8,022 nt of DNA from a candidate division TA06 bacterium DG_78 (GTDB lineage: Bacteria > Hydrothermota > Tepidihabitantia > SM23-42), in contig LJNI01000171.1 in the NCBI GenBank assembly GCA_001303225.1, positions 1 to 8,022 of the forward strand. The letters are read 5' to 3'. Shown in pieces: positions 274 to 8,022 of this stretch. The notes under the pieces were generated by a model. It worked only from the letters and a program-made list of their open reading frames with translations, was not told where the DNA came from and searched no databases. Positions within the stretch are counted from its first letter, which is position 1. Every line of letters begins with the position of its first letter. A program made the position numbers and the translations under genes.

Positions 274-435
274 CTAGCCCTCTAATATACATATTACCGC
301 CATTACGCAGCCACAATCCCACGGTGGGCAGACAGTTTGCCCCTCGGCTACCTCAGCCCAACAGTTGGGTGGACAGACAGGCTGTTGTTCCGTAGGCACC
401 CAGCCCGCAGCAACAGGATGCATGATGTAATCCAT
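274..435 (-). CDS. Cys/Pro/Trp-rich 53-residue peptide, paralogue of the 47-residue peptide at 4478-4621
   Basis: ATG at 435-433, stop TAG at 276-274. A textbook Shine-Dalgarno sequence (GAGGAGGTGA) ends five bases before the ATG, strong support that this small frame is translated. The product has six cysteines (21, 25, 36, 41, 43, 49), two VCPP blocks (VCPPNCW and VCPPWDCGC) and no signal peptide or obvious membrane helix. It shares the start M[DE]YI and the block CxPWxCGC[VI]M with the second peptide; the middle differs. It has its own promoter with TTAGG direct repeats, and strong hairpins lie on both sides, so it is a single-gene transcript. I do not recognise the family. Candidate roles are a ribosomally made modified peptide precursor, a metal-binding peptide, or a ligand of the neighbouring STAND regulator. 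No maturation enzyme is in the window. Its existence is well supported; its function is unknown. Confidence 0.85.
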   Translation of the reverse strand: MDYIMHPVAAGWVPTEQQPVCPPNCWAEVAEGQTVCPPWDCGCVMAVICILEG

Positions 436-505
436 TTTTCTCACCTCCTCTATATACTTTCAACTGCTGTACTCGATTTCTCTCGTAATACTAGATTGCA
501 GTAAG

Positions 506-537
506 AGTATAGGGATGATACCTAATACAATCCCTAA
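506..537 (-). promoter_or_regulatory. SARP-style promoter of the 53-residue peptide: TTAGG-N7-TTAGG-N9-TATACT
   Basis: On the minus strand TTAGG occurs at 537-533 and again at 525-521 (12-bp period), then nine bases, then TATACT at 511-506. There is no separate -35 hexamer; the repeats cover that region. The 47-residue peptide gene has the same elements with identical spacing. Known SARP activators bind direct heptamer repeats about one helical turn apart just upstream of the -10. The predicted leader is about 65 nt, ending in the strong ribosome site. Binding by the regulator in this window is inferred. Confidence 0.75.
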
Positions 538-576
538 CAACATGCTCTGTATGTATTAAAACGTAGCAAAATGGCA

Positions 577-609
577 AAAAAAAGGAGTGTTGCTAACACT
601 CCTTTTTTT
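577..609. terminator. Rho-independent terminator after the broken VCBS gene
   Basis: Perfect 15-bp inverted repeat (577-591/595-609) with a 3-base loop. A GGAGTGTT core is flanked by seven A and seven T, so it reads as a terminator on either strand. It lies just past the TGA at 625-627 of the degraded VCBS gene and separates that unit from the peptide promoter. Confidence 0.9.
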
Positions 610-624
610 GATAGCAATCATAGT

Positions 625-2247
625 TCAATGTATCAATAAGAACTTTCTTATGACGTTGCCATGGTTTTCAGTTTTCAGATTATAGAAATAGACACCAGCA
701 GAGAGGTTTAGATCAATGTGTAACGTATGGGTTCCAGCACTAAACCTACGAGATACGAGTGCTAAATTTAATATTGCCCTTACCTTTGCTGATTGTAGCA
801 GCACTGAATGTAAATGCTTTGGGTATGACTGAACTTCCTTCGGCAACACCTGGATCATATGTCTCGATGACTTTTTCTAAGGTATCATTGCTCGGATTTT
901 CATCGCCTGCGAGTTGTGTATACACAGTCACGGTATAGGTGCCACTTACAAAGATAAACGCATCGGGAAAGGTAACCTGTGTGCTATCACCTGGTAATAT
1001 ATTGCCGATTGACAGGTAATATCGAAGCTTGCGCTAACTGTGCCCAAGTTTGTCACGGTCGCACGTGGATAAAGTGTGGTGTTTTCAGGAAGAGGTGTTA
1101 GTATATCAATAGAGACAGCTCCCGCATCATGTACGCCAGTTGCCTCTATCACTTTCCCTAAGGTATCATTGTCAGGATAATTATCTCCTGCGAGTTGCGT
1201 ATAGACAGTTACGGTATAGGTGCCACTCTCAAAGGTGAAGTCATCAGGGAACGTGACCCGTATGCTCTCACTTGGCGCTAAATTGCTAACTGTGGTTGAT
1301 GTATATGAACCTGGCTCAATGGTGCAGGTAATGTTGAAGGTCTCGGTATTTATGCCAAAGTTTTTCACGGTTGCATGGGGATTGAGTGTCGTGTCTTCAG
1401 GAAGAGTTGATGGAATGTCAATAGTGACCGTGCCGACGTCATGGGCCCTTATCAAATCACTTTGCCACCAGGCGATGTCATCAGAATTCAAAGCAGCTCC
1501 CAGGACATCGACATCATTATCATCATCCAGGTCAATGGCATAGACAGAATTGGCACCTGGAAAGTTATCGGCGATCGTATGTTCAGTAAAGTTCTCGTTT
1601 CCGTCATTTTCCCACCAGGTAATATCATCGGCATTAGCAGCAGCTCCCAGGACATCGACATCACCGTCATCATCCAGGTCAATGGCATAGACAGAACGGG
1701 GGCCGTCAAAGGTTCCAGCGATCGTATGTTCAGTAAAGTTCTCGTTTCCGTCATTTTCCCACCAGGTAATATCATCGGCATTATAAGCAGCTCCCAGGAC
1801 ATCGACATCACCGTCAGGTTCTATGTCGATGGCATAGACAGAATAGGCATAGTCAAAGGTTCCGTCGATCGTATGTTCGGTAAAGTTTTCATCGCCATCA
1901 TTTTCCCACCAGGTGATATCATCGGCATCATGAGCAGTTCCCAGGACATCGATATCATCGTCATCATCCAGGTCAATGGCATAGACAGAATTGGCACCAT
2001 CAAAGTTATCGGCAATAGTATGTTCAGTAAAATTTTCGTTTCCGTCATTTTCCCACCATGTGATATCGTCGTCATGATAGGCAGCTCCCAGAACATCTAT
2101 ATCACCGTCATCATCCAGGTCGATAGCATAGACAGGAAGTGCGCCGTCAAAGTTATCGGCGATGAAGTGTTCTGTCCAGCCAATTTGGGCGAGTAGACTT
2201 CTGGGTACGATCAATACCAAAACGGTAATCATGATTAAACGATTCAT
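625..2247 (-). pseudogene. Secreted VCBS/FG-GAP-like repeat protein with CARDB and sorting domains, broken by two frameshifting deletions
   Basis: The start ATG at 2247 follows AAGGAGG eight bases upstream. The frame encodes a signal peptide (~1-20, cleavage likely after LLA), five 49-51-residue repeats at ~22-264 (pattern [WF]TEHxIxxxFxxAxxVYAIDLDDDxDxDVLGxAxxxDDIxWW) with Asp-rich Ca-binding-like loops, one CARDB-like domain (~269-375) and the start of a second. Near 1011 the frame is lost and stops at 946. The rest of the second CARDB continues in another frame to 746, then a third frame carries the end of a Por/type IX-like sorting domain down to TGA at 625-627. Against the first CARDB, the first break is a net loss of about 31 bases. 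Against the intact paralogue at 2557-4278, the second break (near 763) is a net loss of 62 bases, removing the middle of the sorting domain. As written it would yield a 433-residue secreted but unanchored protein. Genuine decay and assembly error in a repetitive locus both fit. Confidence 0.85.
1456..2184 (-). repeat. Five tandem ~147-bp coding repeats in the broken VCBS gene
   Basis: The period is 147 bp (49 codons). Stretches of more than 60 bases are identical between neighbouring units, for example those beginning at 1571 and 1718, which implies recent duplication or homogenisation. Each unit encodes one Asp-rich VCBS/FG-GAP-like blade ending in WWEN. Confidence 0.9.
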
Positions 2248-2468
2248 AATTTCAACCTCCTTTTTATTTGGGTCTTAACCCGTAACCAATAAAATATTGG
2301 TGTGAGGGTAAAAACCATTTGTGTGGTAACCTGTCTTCCAGAGAACAGATACGACATATAGTGTATGAGGTTCCTACATTTCTTAATACCACTGTACCCC
2401 TTACATAGTTAAATTTTTTTATTGAGTTATCACCACCTTTCATGTTTTTATCTATCTAAATTGTCGCT
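2248..2468 (-). promoter_or_regulatory. Long 5' leader of the broken VCBS gene
   Basis: If the promoter at 2475-2502 is used, the leader is about 220 nt. It holds a 7-bp hairpin (2285-2291/2295-2301, ACCAATA/TATTGGT) and a small GGGT/ACCC hairpin at 2270-2281 just before the ribosome site. No small gene and no third peptide copy is seen here. A regulatory role is possible but unproven, and the hairpins are modest. Confidence 0.3.
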
Positions 2469-2474
2469 GTCTTA

Positions 2475-2502
2475 ACTATAAGAAAGAAATTAATGTTGTC
2501 AA
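2475..2502 (-). promoter_or_regulatory. Sigma-70 promoter for the broken VCBS gene
   Basis: TTGACA (2502-2497), 16-bp spacer, TATAGT (2480-2475). The expected transcript start is near 2468. No TTAGG repeats are present, so this gene appears to be controlled differently from the peptides. Confidence 0.6.
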
Positions 2503-2514
2503 TGCTTAATTTAA

Positions 2515-2551
2515 AACCAAAAAGGACCGGCATTACCACCCCTTTTTGGTT
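2515..2551 (-). terminator. Terminator after the intact VCBS gene
   Basis: Arms 2515-2525 and 2541-2551 (AACCAAAAAGG/CCTTTTTGGTT) are perfectly complementary around a 15-base loop. On the minus strand the 3' arm and following bases are T-rich. It starts five bases after the TGA at 2557-2559. Confidence 0.75.
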
Positions 2552-2556
2552 ACAGC

Positions 2557-4278
2557 TCATTCTACGCGTAGGAACTTCTTGGTGATTGTACCTGATTCGG
2601 TCTTCAGATTGTAGAAATAGACACCTGCAGAGAGATTCAGATCGATGTGTAACGTATGGGTTCCAGCAGAAAATCTATCAGATATAAGTGTTCGTCTTAA
2701 TCTGCCAATTGCATCATAAACGAGAAGATCAACGTTTGTCGCCTCTGGAAGGGTAAACTCAATTTTAGTTTTACCTGTGCTGATCGTAGGAGTGTGTATT
2801 GTAACGTTGAGAGGTATAATTGGATTCGATTCAGCAATACTTGTTGCCTCTACTACTTCTTCTAATGTGTCGTTGGTTGGGTTTTCATCACCGACAAGCA
2901 CAGTATACGCAGTGATCGTATAAAAACCACTCTCAAAGGTGAAACTGTCAGGAAAGGTAATCTGCATACTGTGTTTTGGTGTTAAATCGTAGACAGAATC
3001 TGTCGAAACATACGCGCCAGGATCGATTTCACACATAACATTAAAGGGTTTGGTAATTGTACCAGGATTTGTCACAGTCACCTGTGGATAGAGGGTAGTA
3101 TCTAAGGGAAGTGTTAAAGGAATATCGATTGACACGATTCCCACGTCATGGATACCCTGCATGTCGCTTTCCCACCAGGTAATACTGTTAGCATACCAGG
3201 CTGCACCAATGATATCCATTACCGCATCTCCATCAATATCTGCTGCGTAGACAGCCCGTGCTCCATTATAGTCACCTTTTATTGTGTGTTCGGTCCAGTT
3301 CGTGCCAGTACCATCAATATTCTCCCACCACGTGATATCATCGGCTTCCAGAGCTGTTCCGAGTACGTCAATATCTCCGTCACCATCAATATCAGCGGCA
3401 TATACTGCCCAGGCACCGTTAAAATCACCGTTAATCGTATGTTCGGTCCAACTGGTGCCTATACTATCAGTATTTTCCCACCAGGTAATATCGTCAGCAG
3501 TATAGGCTGCAGCGACCGCATCCATGTCTCCGTCATCATCGATATCAGCTGCACAAACTGACCTCGGTCCACTAAAACTTCCGATGGTATGCGCAGTCCA
3601 ACTGGTGCCTGCTCCATCAGTGTTTTCCCACCAGGTGACGTTAGCTGACGCACTCACGGCCAGGACATCCGTATACTCGTCACCATTTATATCAGACACA
3701 CAAACTGAAAATGCTCGGCTGAAAGAACCAGTGACAACATGTTCAATCCAATTAGTGCCTGAGCCATCAGTATTTTCCCACCAGGTGATATTATCACCGT
3801 CATCAGCGGCGCCGATTAAATCCATATATCCATCACCATCTACATCAGCTGTATAGACTGAGCTGGCACCGTCAAAAACGGTTTCTACTACGTGTTTAGT
3901 CCAACTCGTGCCTGTGCCATCAAGGTTTTCCCACCAGGCGATGTCGTCGGCCTGTCTAGCAGCACCTAAGATATCTATATCTTCATCGCCATCTATATCA
4001 GCTGCATGTACTGATTTGGCGCCGTCAAAATTGTCATCAACTGTATGCTCGATCCAATTAGTGCCCACGCCATCAGTATTTTCCCACCACGTGATATCAT
4101 CATCGGTAGAGGCTGCACCGATTATATCCATATCTTCATCTCCATCTACATCAGCTGCATCGACTTCGTTGGCATTCGTAAATGTACTGTCAACAGTATG
4201 CTCAGTCCAGTTGATCTGGGCACATAGACTCACAGGCATCACAACTACGAAAACCGTAATCACGATTAAACGATTCAT
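2557..4278 (-). CDS. Secreted VCBS/FG-GAP-like repeat protein with CARDB-like and Por/type IX-like C-terminal sorting domain
   Basis: 573 residues from ATG at 4278; a weak ribosome site (AGGAAAG) lies upstream. Residues 1-20 form a signal peptide with likely cleavage after SLCA; the Cys there does not fit a lipobox. Residues ~22-372 are seven ~51-residue repeats of the type WTEHTI...VYAADIDGDxDxDxxGAA...DDITWWENTDG, whose DxDGDxDxD loops resemble calcium sites of FG-GAP/VCBS beta-propeller blades. Seven blades would suit a closed propeller. Residues ~376-480 match a CARDB-like beta domain (HDVGIVSIDIP...VTVTNPG). The end (~500-573) reads YDAIGRLRR...AGVYFYNLKTESG...KKFLRV, the usual form of the type A sorting domain that directs export and cell-surface attachment through the type IX system. 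Likely a surface or secreted binding or adhesion protein; the ligand is unknown. It is the intact paralogue of the broken gene at 625-2247, with a near-identical signal peptide and tail. Confidence 0.9.
   Translation of the reverse strand: MNRLIVITVFVVVMPVSLCAQINWTEHTVDSTFTNANEVDAADVDGDEDMDIIGAASTDDDITWWENTDGVGTNWIEHTVDDNFDGAKSVHAADIDGDEDIDILGAARQADDIAWWENLDGTGTSWTKHVVETVFDGASSVYTADVDGDGYMDLIGAADDGDNITWWENTDGSGTNWIEHVVTGSFSRAFSVCVSDINGDEYTDVLAVSASANVTWWENTDGAGTSWTAHTIGSFSGPRSVCAADIDDDGDMDAVAAAYTADDITWWENTDSIGTSWTEHTINGDFNGAWAVYAADIDGDGDIDVLGTALEADDITWWENIDGTGTNWTEHTIKGDYNGARAVYAADIDGDAVMDIIGAAWYANSITWWESDMQGIHDVGIVSIDIPLTLPLDTTLYPQVTVTNPGTITKPFNVMCEIDPGAYVSTDSVYDLTPKHSMQITFPDSFTFESGFYTITAYTVLVGDENPTNDTLEEVVEATSIAESNPIIPLNVTIHTPTISTGKTKIEFTLPEATNVDLLVYDAIGRLRRTLISDRFSAGTHTLHIDLNLSAGVYFYNLKTESGTITKKFLRVE
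3163..4215 (-). repeat. Seven tandem ~153-bp coding repeats in the intact VCBS gene
   Basis: Seven units of 50-53 codons, each starting near W[TI]xH and ending near WWENTDGxGT[NS]. They are more diverged from one another than the five units of the neighbouring paralogue, so this array looks older. Confidence 0.9.
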
Positions 4279-4300
4279 GATTTGTCTTTCCTATTATCTC

Positions 4301-4333
4301 ATGCACCATATTTCATATGACTTCATGGTGCAT
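4301..4333 (-). promoter_or_regulatory. Hairpin in the 5' leader of the intact VCBS gene
   Basis: Arms 4301-4309 and 4325-4333 (ATGCACCAT/ATGGTGCAT) pair perfectly over a 15-base loop that itself contains the palindrome TCATATGA (4313-4320). It ends about 10 bases before the ribosome site of the VCBS gene, so it could affect translation or mRNA stability. Function is inferred from position. Confidence 0.4.
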
Positions 4334-4343
4334 GTACAAACAC

Positions 4344-4364
4344 GTTCTGGTAGTATACCAGAAC
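4344..4364 (-). promoter_or_regulatory. Palindrome overlapping an extended -10 element upstream of the intact VCBS gene
   Basis: Perfect 9-bp arms (GTTCTGGTA/TACCAGAAC) flank a 3-base centre. On the minus strand the same bases spell an extended -10, TGGTATACT (4360-4352), without a clear -35. This would start transcription near 4345 and give a leader of about 67 nt. The overlap suggests a repressor or activator site on the promoter. The promoter call is tentative; the palindrome is certain. Confidence 0.4.
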
Positions 4365-4394
4365 TCTACAAAAAACCATTTGAGCACGTGACAG

Positions 4395-4438
4395 CTGGGG
4401 CGTACTGAGAAGAGCTATTTTTCTCGACTACGCCCCAG
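4395..4438. terminator. Large GC-rich stem-loop between the 47-residue peptide and the intact VCBS gene
   Basis: An outer 10-bp perfect stem (4395-4404/4429-4438, CTGGGGCGTA/TACGCCCCAG) and an inner 5-bp stem (GAGAA/TTCTC, 4407-4411/4421-4425) are separated by a small internal loop. A TTTT run follows on the plus strand only. It begins about 40 bases past the peptide stop, as the 16-bp hairpin follows the other peptide, and may end or stabilise the peptide mRNA. Confidence 0.6.
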
Positions 4439-4442
4439 TTTT

Positions 4443-4465
4443 AAAATAATGCGCTCCAGCGCGCA
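4443..4465 (-). terminator. Short terminator-like hairpin directly after the 47-residue peptide
   Basis: TGCGC/GCGCA (4450-4454/4461-4465) with a 6-base loop, followed on the minus strand by TTATTTT. It is a short stem, so a weak candidate; the larger stem-loop just downstream may do the work. Confidence 0.45.
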
Positions 4466-4477
4466 GAGGCATTTACA

Positions 4478-4621
4478 TTATCCATAATTATACACGTTCA
4501 TGATACAGCCGCAACTCCATGGTGAACAAGGTCCGTTCGTCGGACATACAGGGCCGTTCGGTGGACATGCTGGCTGCCATGGACCGGTATCATGGTGTTC
4601 TGGGTTAATAATATACTCCAT
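4478..4621 (-). CDS. Cys/Pro/Gly-rich 47-residue peptide, paralogue of the 53-residue peptide at 274-435
   Basis: ATG at 4621-4619, stop TAA at 4480-4478, with a strong ribosome site (AAAGGAGGTGAG) just upstream. It has five cysteines (19, 26, 32, 37, 39) and a repeated CPxNGP block (CPPNGPVCPTNGP) before the conserved ending CSPWSCGCIM. The start MEYIINP matches MDYIMHP of the other copy. No signal peptide, no membrane helix. It sits directly downstream of the SARP-type regulator and upstream of the intact VCBS gene, with its own TTAGG-repeat promoter. Conservation of both ends, of the ribosome site and of the promoter between two otherwise diverged copies is good evidence of a real gene family. 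I do not recognise the family. A modified-peptide precursor, a thiol/metal-binding peptide or a signal peptide for the regulator are possibilities only. Confidence 0.85.
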   Translation of the reverse strand: MEYIINPEHHDTGPWQPACPPNGPVCPTNGPCSPWSCGCIMNVYNYG

Positions 4622-4700
4622 TCGCTTCTCACCTCCTTTTCTTCATCATCTAAAGACACCAGAAAGTACCTTAGATGTGAATGAGATTTCTCCGCACATC

Positions 4701-4732
4701 ATTATAGTGGAGATACCTAACAAAAATCCTAA
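4701..4732 (-). promoter_or_regulatory. SARP-style promoter of the 47-residue peptide: TTAGG-N7-TTAGG-N9-TATAAT
   Basis: Minus strand: TTAGG at 4732-4728 and 4720-4716, nine bases, consensus -10 TATAAT at 4706-4701. Period and -10 distance equal those of the other peptide promoter, and the flanks also agree (GTTAGG upstream, TTAGGTATC into the spacer). It lies between the regulator gene and the peptide. The predicted leader is about 73 nt. Confidence 0.75.
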
Positions 4733-4814
4733 CACAGACCAGTTGGATATCATGAGTTCAGGAAATTTAATGAAATATAGAGGTTTTACAGTTCGGCGTG
4801 TTTGCGTTGTTTGA

Positions 4815-7800
4815 TTAATGTTTCAAAGAGTGTGACGGTTTCAGACCGCGGTGCAGTCTTGAGACCTTGTGCCAAGACCTCCTTGAGCCGGGAGAAACAG
4901 TCTTGTAAACCACCGAGATCATTGAGTGCTCCATAACACCGCATCGCCACACAGTGCGCCTCCTCATAATACGGATCCTTATCAATGAAGAGCTTACAGA
5001 ATCGGAGCGCCTTATCATAATTACCGAGTTACAGAATCGGAGCGCCTTATCATAATTACCGAGTTCATAATGACCCTGGGCAAGGTTACGTAGAATATAG
5101 AGATACAGTCCCTCAAAATATCGACGACGTTGCTGGCACCACTCACTGTAAAAATCATCCATGAATCCACCGCGGTAGAGTGAGGCAGCTTCTTCATACT
5201 TTATCAACCCCGCGGCACGATTACCATCTTTGACCAATCGATCGGCCTTGTTGATCAAGGTTTCGAATTCTTCGGTGTCAATCCAGTAGCGGTATTTTGG
5301 AGAGAGGGAGTAGGTTTTCTTGTCGAACAGGATGACATCTTTTGCAATGGTCTTCCGTATTGCATTGTAAAAGAGCTGATGTGCTATAGTAGGTCGATGG
5401 TCAGGCCAGAAGGTATTGATAATTTTTTCACGTTTGACTTCGGTCTGTCGATTGTCAGCGAAGAAACTGAAGAGTTCCTGAAATCGTCGTTTTCGCCAGG
5501 ATCGCATTTTTATTTTTCTCCCTCTTTTTAAAATTTGTACTGTGTTGAATAATCGGATGATAAAGTCGTATTTCACTCCTTCGGGTTCGACAAAAATTTC
5601 GGTTGTTTCTGAATAGGGTACCCTTAAAAGAATATGTTGTACATATGAAGTCTTAAAGTTAATCTTTTTCAAAAACCGTATGATTTCTGGACTATGTTTT
5701 AGTTCATATATGAGTAGAAAATCATAGGAATTTTTTTCTGCTATTTTAATTGCCTTCTTAATAAACATTTTTGCTTTTGTTTCTTCTTTCTTTAGCAAGT
5801 ACAATCGTGCGAAATAGACATACGAACTCATGGTAAGATGTTTAGAACCTTTCAAGCTTGCTATGGCTTGATTTAAGGTTTTATGCGCAGCATTGGAGTT
5901 TCCCAGAGCCAGCTCAATCATGATTTTTGTTGTAAGATTGGATTTTTTATAGAGAGCTGGGATGGGTAATTCAAGAGACTTATCACTATATTTTTTTGCC
6001 TCAAAGAAATTGCCTCGATTTATTGCAAGTACAGCCATTCCGTCCCAGGTGATGGATAGTAGCCAATTATTACTGATTTCTAATGCCATTTGTTCAGCTT
6101 TTTTCAATAACTGCTCGGCCTGCACAAATTCGTCCTGTAATATCTTGGAGACCCCAAGGCACTCATAGCTTGAACATAATTTGGTTTTGTCGTTAAAAAG
6201 TCGGGCATATTTCATTGCCTCTTTTAATACTTCTTCTACCTTGGTCAATTTGCCCTGTAAGGTCAAGGCATGTCCTAAGTTGTTCAATGCTAATATTAAG
6301 GTTGGTGAAGGGTTCGACCTTAATTTATTAATCACCTCTTCAAAATATCTCTGGGCACAATCAAAATTGCCCATTTCCATATTAGTTACTGCAAGATTGT
6401 GGAGGATTCTATAAATATGATATGTATCTTTCATTTTTTTTAAAATCTTCAAAATTTCTTCAAAGACTGACACTGACTGTTTAAATTTTCTTTCTAGGTT
6501 GAGTGTTATTGCAAGATAATTCAAAAAATCTATTCTGGTCTTTTTGCTTCTTATTTTTTTTGAATGGAGTATTTTTCTGATTTTCTTTGAGATTCCTTTT
6601 TGTTTACCGAGATCCAAATTCATTTGAAATTGGACAAGAATGGATTTAAGGACTTCTTGGTGCAGTTTACGTTGATGTGCTATTCGTTGTGCTCGCGAAT
6701 AGTACAACCTGGCACGAGTCCAATTACAATCCCAAGCATAGATTCTGCCTTTTATGCGCACGAGTGTTGGGCTGCTGTTAATCAGTGCCTTTGGAAGACT
6801 TTCTACGTAGGGTTTAATACGCTCGGCTTTTCCAAAGGTGATATAATCTTCAGCGAATTTCTCAAGGAGGCGGGCAATCGATGGGTAGTCTTTGGCTTCA
6901 TAACAATGCTTGAGTGCGGATGAAAAAAATCCTTCTTTCTCCAAGTAAGAACCGGCTCTCGTATGGAATTTTTGATGTAAACCTGTTTCTTTTAATTTCC
7001 TCTTGAGAAAATTACGGAAAAGATGATGGTACATGTATTGAGGTTGAGATGTTTGATAAGAAGAGATGAAGAGATGCCTTTTTTCTAACCTCTTTACAAT
7101 TACCTTTGAGTCATTCCTTGATAAAAGGAAGTCACAGGCTTTCGGCGAGAAATAAGAAAAGACTGATGTCGCAGTAAGAAAGAGTTTTAGCTCTTCTTCG
7201 AGTGGAGAAAAGACTTCTCTCTCAAAATAGTCGTAGAGAGACATGAGCAGAGATTTTTTACTTTTTCCAATAACGGCTCTCTGCGTATCTGGTTGGATAA
7301 GAAATTGGAGATAGGTAATCCAACCCTCAGAATTAGATTCGAGCCTTTTTAATTCAGCTAGCCGTGGATCATAACCCTTCATGTGTTTACATAGTATTCT
7401 GATTTCATCTTTAGTGAATTTTAAATCTTGTTGAGTAATATCGAGTGATTCATTTTTGAGGTGAAAGCGATTCAATGAAAACGGTGGACTGCTCCTCGCT
7501 GAAATAAAAATTGAAACATTAGGAGGAATATGATTGAGAAAATATTCAAATCCGGAAATAATTTTCTTGAATTCATAAATTTCTTGTAGATCATCAAAAA
7601 TAAATAGAATTCTTGAATAAAGGAGCTCAGATAATTCATTAATAAACGTACCTATAAGAATCTCCGTTTTTATTTCGCGACGAGAATGTTCGATAATGCT
7701 TAACGTTCTTTTGCCGAATCCAGATGCATATTTTTTCATAGCTTCTATACAATACTGAATGAAAAGGCTGAGGTCTTGATCCGATTTATCAACTTGATAC

Positions 7801-7994
7801 CAGACGTAGGGAATCGTAATTTTTTTGACGAATTGCGCCAGCAGTGTTGTTTTTCCGTAACCAGCATCAGCACAGATTGATATTATCCTCTTGTTGAGAT
7901 TTGCTGTGAGAAGTTTTAATAAACGACCACGATACAAAATATAATCGGCTATTCTTGGTGGTATGATTTTTGTCTTTAAGAGAGGTTCTCTCAC
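4815..7994 (-). CDS. MalT-like STAND ATPase-TPR transcriptional activator with SARP-type winged helix and BTAD (3' end frameshifted)
   Basis: Start GTG at 7994: an in-frame TAA lies two codons upstream (8000-7998), and the N-terminus PLLKTKIIPPRI is the standard opening of MalT/LAL-type STAND regulators. Domains: P-loop ATPase with Walker A AGYGKTT (~44-50), Walker B ILFIFDD (~129-135), an arginine-containing sensor-like ISARSSPP (~164-171) and the family's EGW motif (~223-225); winged-helix linker to ~340; TPR-like helical region ~350-790; OmpR/SARP-type winged helix ~812-900 (RRFQELFSFFADN...INTFWPDHRPTIAHQLFYNAIR); BTAD from ~905. No LuxR-type HTH. The family binds ATP, senses a ligand through the TPR/STAND part and activates transcription. 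Residues 1-988 are native. A 35-bp tandem duplication shifts the remainder, giving 71 unrelated residues. Removing one copy restores a typical BTAD ending (...KEVLAQGLKTAPRSETV...) of 69 residues and a stop at 4788-4786, total 1,057. Probable activator of the two peptide genes (inferred). Confidence 0.85.
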   Translation of the reverse strand: MREPLLKTKIIPPRIADYILYRGRLLKLLTANLNKRIISICADAGYGKTTLLAQFVKKITIPYVWYQVDKSDQDLSLFIQYCIEAMKKYASGFGKRTLSIIEHSRREIKTEILIGTFINELSELLYSRILFIFDDLQEIYEFKKIISGFEYFLNHIPPNVSIFISARSSPPFSLNRFHLKNESLDITQQDLKFTKDEIRILCKHMKGYDPRLAELKRLESNSEGWITYLQFLIQPDTQRAVIGKSKKSLLMSLYDYFEREVFSPLEEELKLFLTATSVFSYFSPKACDFLLSRNDSKVIVKRLEKRHLFISSYQTSQPQYMYHHLFRNFLKRKLKETGLHQKFHTRAGSYLEKEGFFSSALKHCYEAKDYPSIARLLEKFAEDYITFGKAERIKPYVESLPKALINSSPTLVRIKGRIYAWDCNWTRARLYYSRAQRIAHQRKLHQEVLKSILVQFQMNLDLGKQKGISKKIRKILHSKKIRSKKTRIDFLNYLAITLNLERKFKQSVSVFEEILKILKKMKDTYHIYRILHNLAVTNMEMGNFDCAQRYFEEVINKLRSNPSPTLILALNNLGHALTLQGKLTKVEEVLKEAMKYARLFNDKTKLCSSYECLGVSKILQDEFVQAEQLLKKAEQMALEISNNWLLSITWDGMAVLAINRGNFFEAKKYSDKSLELPIPALYKKSNLTTKIMIELALGNSNAAHKTLNQAIASLKGSKHLTMSSYVYFARLYLLKKEETKAKMFIKKAIKIAEKNSYDFLLIYELKHSPEIIRFLKKINFKTSYVQHILLRVPYSETTEIFVEPEGVKYDFIIRLFNTVQILKRGRKIKMRSWRKRRFQELFSFFADNRQTEVKREKIINTFWPDHRPTIAHQLFYNAIRKTIAKDVILFDKKTYSLSPKYRYWIDTEEFETLINKADRLVKDGNRAAGLIKYEEAASLYRGGFMDDFYSEWCQQRRRYFEGLYLYILRNLAQGHYELGNYDKALRFCNSVIMIRRSDSVSSSLIRIRIMRRRTVWRCGVMEHSMISVVYKTVSPGSRRSWHKVSRLHRGLKPSHSLKH
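4994..5065. repeat. Perfect 35-bp tandem duplication inside the BTAD coding region
   Basis: The unit starting at 4994 is repeated exactly at 5029, and the identity runs two bases further (to 5065). 35 is not a multiple of three, so the reading frame changes after residue 988 (FC). The downstream native frame is fully open and BTAD-like, which shows the duplication is recent or an assembly error. Confidence 0.95.
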
Positions 7995-8022
7995 GCATTA
8001 AAAGTATATTCTCGTACGGAAT
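7995..8022. repeat. Terminal direct repeat, right copy (28 bp)
   Basis: Identical to bases 1-28. It abuts the GTG start of the regulator gene and contains its -10 (8003-8008). The matching -35 is found only at 31-36, as expected if the sequence continues from here into the left end. Confidence 0.9.

Follow-up and report, generated by a model that had tools for sequence, protein, structure and literature searches.

The systems nearest to the one described here come from radical SAM peptide chemistry on one side and from transcriptional control on the other. In the SCIFF system CteA/CteB, a recognition element (RRE) for ribosomally synthesized and post-translationally modified peptides (RiPPs) binds the leader, and the enzyme makes a thioether (PMC8326336). 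Streptomyces antibiotic regulatory proteins (SARPs) use heptamer direct repeats with spacers of 4 to 15 nt that overlap the -35 region (PMC10972967), and in the SARP-LAL regulator PimR, a DNA-binding/BTAD part is joined to a large ATPase, with a heptamer direct-repeat operator (PMC5930380). Here, we analyzed an 8,022-base stretch of DNA (the window) that is the entire contig LJNI01000171.1 (G000:C133) of candidate division TA06 bacterium DG_78, whose genome comprises 2.09 Mb in 173 contigs at 79.5% completeness. It encodes two Cys-rich micropeptides, mp1 and mp2. With a probability of roughly 0.8, we consider these to be RiPP precursors in which a short leader, M[DE]YIxxP, is followed by a core, CxPWxCGC[VI]M, that becomes cross-linked by a radical SAM/SPASM maturase whose gene lies on a different contig, C55, of this genome. 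The roles of leader and core are predicted ones for the two conserved blocks.

Both peptides lie at the places and have the lengths (53 and 47 residues) given in an earlier sequence-only reading of the window, and both are on the minus strand. The frame at 435-274 (mp1, MDYIMHPVAAGWVPTEQQPVCPPNCWAEVAEGQTVCPPWDCGCVMAVICILEG) carries the leader-like MDYIMHP, the core-like CPPWDCGCVM and the tail ICILEG, and that at 4621-4478 (mp2, MEYIINPEHHDTGPWQPACPPNGPVCPTNGPCSPWSCGCIMNVYNYG) carries MEYIINP, CSPWSCGCIM and NVYNYG. The near-perfect ribosome sites reported for them are present, with GGAGGTGA at 441-448 before mp1 and at 4629-4636 before mp2 (minus strand). Terminator-like hairpins follow mp1 at 224-259 (-27 kcal/mol, z -8.8) and mp2 at 4395-4438 (-25.4 kcal/mol, z -5.0) on the same strand. 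The two had been described as a pair of paralogues. Their paralogy holds, as a whole-genome search with mp2 recovered mp1 at E 8.8e-4, but the count of two does not: the same query also hit C55, where a third copy lies (E 9.6e-7), and the family has at least four genes in the genome (mp1, mp2, the C55 peptide and pep4, also on C55). The ICIL tail is common to mp1 and pep4, and the NVYN tail to mp2 and the C55 peptide. Genome-wide, the start pattern GGTGA-N2-9-ATGGANNNNHTNNNNNNNCC occurs at exactly the four peptide genes, compared to one occurrence in the control.

In a codon alignment of mp1, mp2 and the C55 peptide, synonymous sites are near saturation and replacement sites are not. The proportions of synonymous (pS) and nonsynonymous (pN) differences were 0.82 and 0.27 for mp2/C55 peptide (p 6.4e-7), 0.83 and 0.41 for mp2/mp1 (p 2.4e-5), and 0.89 and 0.37 for mp1/C55 peptide (p 3.8e-6), and the C-terminal block alone gave p values of 0.0035 (mp2/mp1) and 0.0004 (mp2/C55 peptide). 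Purifying selection acts on both mp1 and mp2, and the synonymous bias bears out the selected peptide product that had been proposed. The outcome named in advance as refuting that proposal, a lack of homologues or of synonymous bias, did not occur. With fewer than 60 codons each, the two frames could be taken for chance open frames, but the homologues and the codon test already refute that explanation, to which we attach practically no weight.

The peptides had been called undescribed, and the family libraries give them no name. Pfam contained no above-cut-off match (mp1 reached only a sub-threshold match to CFEM, 13.4 bits against 22), none of the four peptides matched an NCBIfam model at an E value of ≤0.1, and no PADLOC model matched mp1 or mp2. 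In the literature searched, outside of which most papers of subscription journals lay, none of the papers listed deals with this peptide family as far as titles and the beginnings of abstracts tell. A profile of mp1, mp2 and the C55 peptide was searched against 5.8 billion proteins, with candidates selected by shared words. All six candidates of the first round matched: P0002 is identical to mp1, and the other five gave E values of 2e-18 to 2e-10. These five homologues divide into mp1-type (P0004, P0005), mp2-type (P0003) and C55-type (P0006, P0007), so by sequence the three peptide types stay distinct outside this genome. With the five added to the profile, a second round returned 8 of 213 candidates at E ≤1, among which two were new: P0008 (E 9e-8), in which the Pro of the leader and one Cys are replaced, and P0009. 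The latter is weak (E 0.19), yet reads MEYIVDP...CSPWSCGCIM. In the nine-row alignment, M..I..P and PW.CGC.M are invariant. Weak matches in 25 other genomes (E 0.017 to 1), many with stops or half query coverage, are treated as chance; one such contig, G024:C74, was scanned and nothing was found.

The genomic context that ties the peptides to a maturase is on contig C55 (locus L004), read along the minus strand. There, an MsbA-like ABC exporter (9970-8231) is followed by pep4 (MDYLIEPENEGSGITGRIPPWGVCPLVYPDPICILNGNG; 8026-7907), a STAND/tetratricopeptide repeat (TPR)/BTAD regulator (7740-4477), a TPR protein (4410-3127), the radical SAM/SPASM maturase (2942-1647), the C55 peptide (MEWISHPSQDQCPVQPMCPPISNPGCPPWDCGCIMNVYNNG; 1625-1500) and an FG-GAP-like frame, placed after the C55 peptide as its counterpart is after mp2. 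Only 21 nt separate the stop codon of the maturase from the ATG of the C55 peptide, which has the leader type and PW.CGC.M in common with mp1 and mp2. The sequence-only reading had suggested a search for radical SAM and transport genes near BTAD/STAND regulators; such neighbors exist on C55. The window holds no maturase. Non-coding stretches 3' of mp2 (its terminator-like hairpin lies in the alignable sequence) and 3' of the C55 peptide can be aligned, and the window therefore resembles a diverged second version of the C55 locus that lacks the maturase and the TPR protein. A segmental duplication of the C55 cluster could also have left mp1 and mp2 as decaying orphan precursors whose product is no longer made, since the window repeats the C55 gene order without the maturase, one FG-GAP frame is lost and the regulator frame is interrupted. 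The strong purifying signal, the operator, ribosome site and terminator retained at both genes, and the separate mp1- and mp2-type homologues elsewhere make decay very improbable.

The C55 maturase belongs to a known superfamily but falls short of the described families within it. Its radical SAM domain (PF04055, 51.3 bits; cut-off 29.5) and SPASM domain (TIGR04085, 52.6 bits; cut-off 27) are clear. On its sequence, it is a member of the RiPP-maturase part of the superfamily that scores below the cut-off of each maturase family among the best 25 of 66 matching NCBIfam models. The top-scoring model is TIGR04334, of the Clo7bot system, at 352.7 bits against a cut-off of 600, and, as noted above, the four peptides match no NCBIfam model; nothing naming Clo7bot was found in the literature searched. 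Second is TIGR04463 (283.6 bits; cut-off 525), which presumably belongs with TigE. The structure of TigE (8vpo) is also the closest fold to the predicted maturase (Foldseek E 3e-15, 16% identity), and since the same literature contained nothing on TigE with radical SAM, this likeness is one of fold only. CefB scored 235.5 bits against 600.

For the SCIFF family, the similarity lies in the radical SAM and SPASM domains, in an N-terminus that is predicted to be RRE-like and in 5wgg, which we take to be CteB and which is the nearest solved chain by sequence (E 1.4e-29) and second to TigE by fold. A difference from SCIFF is that the maturase scores only 58.9 bits with TIGR03974 (cut-off 425); another is that the predicted core of the peptides contains Trp and Pro and that their leader, MxYIxxP, is short. 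The predicted structure matches 8vpo and 5wgg over its full length, and residues 1 to about 90 (block means of 67 to 85) are modeled as beta-beta-beta-alpha-alpha-alpha, which would fit an RRE. PapB, the freyrasin enzyme, likewise has a Cys-rich substrate, and C-x-x-x-D, the spacing of freyrasin, occurs in mp1 and in the C55 peptide (as CPPWD). In contrast, NF047865 gave 92 bits against 340, and the D position is S in mp2 and N in P0006. Two PADLOC viperin models also match the C55 maturase, where they cover the radical SAM core. A role as a defense system was considered and rejected, as mp1, mp2, the regulator of the window and its first FG-GAP protein were all without a PADLOC match.

Relatives of the maturase at E ≤1e-40 occur in 13 of the 147 species genomes searched from the phylum, and in seven of these 13 loci, a small Cys-rich frame preceded by a Shine-Dalgarno (SD) sequence and bearing the full leader motif, M-x-[YFWIL]-[ILMVT]-x-x-P, adjoins the maturase. 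The starts are MEWISHP in DG_78 itself, MEILIQP (G023), MTYLMQP (G024), MDITKQP (G017), MKFLHEP (G026) and MKYIYRP (G110), and G067 has three peptides in a row (MDYILQP, MDFILKP and MDFILKP). A count blind to position, covering SD-preceded ATG frames of 25 to 60 residues with at least two Cys, found the motif in 12 of 17 frames at 14 focal loci (the window, C55 and twelve relatives' loci; 105 kb). It was present in none of 31 frames at the 80 listed loci of named genomes (900 kb) and in 0/1 frames at 13 other loci of the same genome (115 kb), and its background rate is 22/5,876 ATG frames. Once the four DG_78 peptides and G017 are left aside, 7/12 focal frames still have it, far above background (p 8e-15). 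The motif recurs beside related maturases in four other genera. Named genomes contain at least 80 loci with maturase relatives, the closest among those listed being 36% identical (Oscillospiraceae, L084). The 21 best of them (L084-L104) have some Cys-rich peptides of other kinds, with MKFLSLGIIVP... behind the L084 maturase as the nearest start.

An alternative hypothesis is that mp1 and mp2 are unmodified Cys-rich micropeptides, secreted or metal binding, and that their linkage to the C55 maturase is incidental. Metal binding or disulfide formation by the CxPWxCGC block is conceivable, and modification is something that sequence cannot reveal. However, the leader motif follows the maturase clade across genera, peptides and maturase have an operator in common, and no hydrophobic signal-peptide stretch is apparent by eye at the start of mp1 or mp2. 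We therefore regard unmodified micropeptides as improbable. As a separate observation, the G024:C75 contig (L040:8243-9683) contains another radical SAM maturase-like gene, behind which lies a 30-residue peptide with a Cys-rich tail (MIIVRESTKPEVPIASPGNCGAGCGFCCVH) that lacks MxYIxxP.

The matching promoters attributed to mp1 and mp2 were also confirmed, and they extend beyond the window. A direct repeat, TRTTAGG-N5-TRTTAGG, stands 9 nt from a -10-like box upstream of mp1, mp2, pep4 and the maturase. On the minus strand of the window, the copy before mp1 is TGTTAGG-N5-TATTAGG (521-539; -10-like TATACT at 506-511), and that before mp2 is TGTTAGG-N5-TGTTAGG (4716-4734; -10-like TATAAT at 4701-4706). 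The genome contains five exact copies, compared to 0.05 expected under a first-order Markov model trained on 123 kb of its sequence (p 2e-9). The fifth, 8 nt from its -10-like box, precedes a 1,231-residue protein on contig C158 (L083:4120-7815) that belongs to peptidase family C25, gingipain type (PF01364, E 1e-47), and also has a C25 propeptide and a sub-threshold sorting tail. When the -10 box is included in the pattern, seven matches were found versus three in the control. These hold four of the five exact copies (mp1 is missed because its -10 box is TATACT) and three further sites: on C13 (L171:1800-3815), with one mismatch and TATAAT at the right distance, before a 671-residue protein that combines a C39-like peptidase domain with a type IX sorting tail; on C60, before a 226-residue protein without a Pfam match; and on C120. 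The two FG-GAP genes of the window have no exact operator of their own. In G024, the maturase is preceded by a different candidate repeat, GTGGGGT with 12-bp spacing.

By analogy with SARPs, the repeat is probably an operator read by the STAND-BTAD regulators, and expression of the peptides is probably coupled through it to that of the maturase and of a protease predicted to be secreted. The window regulator (4815-7994, minus strand) is 49% identical to the C55 regulator over 1,003 residues. BTAD (PF03704; cut-off 22.1) scores 60 bits in the C55 protein, where Trans_reg_C reaches 19.4 bits and remains below its cut-off of 26.2; in the window protein, BTAD scores 34.3 bits and Trans_reg_C is not listed. 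As in PimR, BTAD is combined with a large ATPase and with heptamer repeats, and the 5-nt spacer falls within the SARP range. Unlike PimR, the BTAD here is C-terminal, the ATPase part is MalT-like, the PimR spacers are 4 and 3 nt, and the host phylum is apparently not that of Streptomyces. Seven other regulator-like genes, 25 to 27% identical to the C55 regulator, lie on C131, C127, C92, C84, C40, C1 and C100, a high number for a genome of 2 Mb; no leader-motif peptide was found in the stretches scanned around them.

The ABC exporter offers a further link. Relatives at E ≤1e-100 occur in nine of 65 class genomes, and four of the seven exporters that are at least 40% identical (C55 counted among them) have in their vicinity a Cys-rich peptide and a gene whose top NCBIfam models are radical SAM peptide maturases: C55, G024:C75 (73% identical), G024:C8 and G017:C217. 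The last of these (L188:3720-7196) represents a second kind of cluster, with a longer Cys-rich peptide, a CcpM-like maturase (262 bits; cut-off 500) and the exporter.

Several observations weigh against assigning mp1 and mp2 to the C55 maturase. The window has no maturase, so modification must occur in trans, in a genome of which a fifth is missing; a short precursor directly beside the maturase is found for the C55 peptide and for relatives, and mp1 and mp2 are tied to the enzyme by paralogy and operator only. pep4 carries PPW but lacks PWxCGC. The CxPWxCGCxM block is confined to this one genome among the 147 of the phylum, and no independent cluster with the exact core was found there. The leader-motif expression was written after most of the peptides had been seen; at two more maturase loci, the similar peptide lacks the Pro (G089, MRYINRS; G128, MKIIETE), and at four of the 13 (G131, G145, G111 and G113), the flank examined contains no fitting peptide. 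Three of the seven exporters (G023:C23, G016:C210 and G010:C86) have no such peptide maturase in the stretch examined; at G010:C86, the only radical SAM gene is about 6 kb away, with ApyD as best model (163.5 bits; cut-off 750). With one mismatch allowed, four more copies of the operator appear, and the total of nine equals that of the reversed-pattern control, so only the exact operator set is safe. Nor was the operator found in 126 kb (16 loci) around the relatives' clusters and exporters. The structural model of the maturase is of weak to moderate quality (pLDDT 67, pTM 0.67).

The absent maturase and the incomplete assembly would also suit RiPP precursors matured by some other enzyme, e.g., one lost with the missing fifth, as would the core-like blocks of mp2 (CSPWS) and pep4, which differ from that of the C55 peptide. 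This is the least improbable of the competing explanations, but still an unlikely one: the C55 peptide, adjacent to the maturase, has the mp1/mp2 leader type and PW.CGC.M, both loci have the operator in common, and the genome contains a single maturase of this clade at E ≤1e-40.

If mp1 and mp2 are indeed precursors for the C55 maturase, a STAND-TPR-BTAD regulator would bind TRTTAGG-N5-TRTTAGG and, along with the peptides and the maturase, turn on one or more secreted cysteine peptidases. The RRE-like domain at the N-terminus of the maturase would then hold the leader while the enzyme makes Cys-based cross-links in the C-terminal CxPWxCGC block. Judging by the nearest enzymes, a thioether to a side-chain carbon, as in ranthipeptides, is the likeliest cross-link, with a Trp cyclophane as the main alternative. 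The ABC exporter would carry the product out, and because Pfam shows no peptidase domain in the exporter, the leader would be removed by a separate peptidase. Outside the cell, the product may act as a signal or an antagonist. A signaling role has precedent, as work on clostridial ranthipeptides is reported in a review to have found effects on cell events and an upregulated Agr locus (PMC8102284), and streptococcal radical SAM peptides are linked to TPR-type regulators (PMC13361665). In the Rgg/SHP-controlled RaS-RiPPs of streptococci, too, a single circuit comprises a peptide, a radical SAM enzyme and a regulator of TPR type (PMC13361665), but here the regulator is of the STAND/BTAD class, and no separate pheromone gene was seen, though no search was aimed at one.

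We speculate, well short of proposing it as the likely function, that the modified peptides are autoinducers: each regulator would sense the matured peptides of its own locus through its TPR part and, by way of the TRTTAGG direct repeat, drive further peptide production along with the maturase and a set of cysteine peptidases secreted by the type IX route (C25 gingipain-like and C39-like). The genome would then contain a RiPP quorum circuit duplicated into diverging peptide-receptor sets. To our knowledge, STAND-TPR-BTAD proteins are not a known receptor class for peptide signals.

The main genes of the window are all on the minus strand. Downstream of mp2, an FG-GAP repeat protein (4278-2557) ends in a type IX secretion sorting tail (TIGR04183, 35.5 bits; cut-off 23), and a second FG-GAP/CARDB protein (946-2247, minus strand) loses its reading frame near the 3' end. 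The FG-GAP units of both form near-regular repeats of 147 and 153 nt (1457-2191 and 3281-4192). Within the regulator gene, an exact 35-nt tandem duplication (4994-5063) throws the last ~75 residues out of frame and is probably an assembly join. The duplicated sequence is also the start of contig C158, which bears the terminal part of a third close regulator (212/230 aligned bases identical). The contig ends in an exact 28-nt direct repeat (1-28 and 7995-8022), located directly before the GTG start of the regulator. Given this repeat, mp1 may lie upstream of a regulator copy, in a tandem array or a circle. The contig could be a circular element, but a tandem array collapsed in assembly is no less likely, because the 35-nt duplication also starts C158.

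Radical SAM RiPPs are themselves a known kind, and the precursor family described here is absent from Pfam and NCBIfam. What is new is the probable precursor family, the orphan precursors split from their presumed maturase, and the predicted control by STAND-BTAD regulators through a direct repeat. With it, a bacterial phylum gains a likely RiPP precursor family that had not been catalogued, and for this family the analysis predicts a specific operator and a regulon. Precursors as distant from their maturase as mp1 and mp2 are easily overlooked by mining restricted to maturase neighborhoods. The family suggests a rule by which they may be found: an SD sequence, MxYIxxP and a Cys-rich tail, either next to a maturase similar to TIGR04334 or, where modification is in trans, next to a STAND/BTAD gene.

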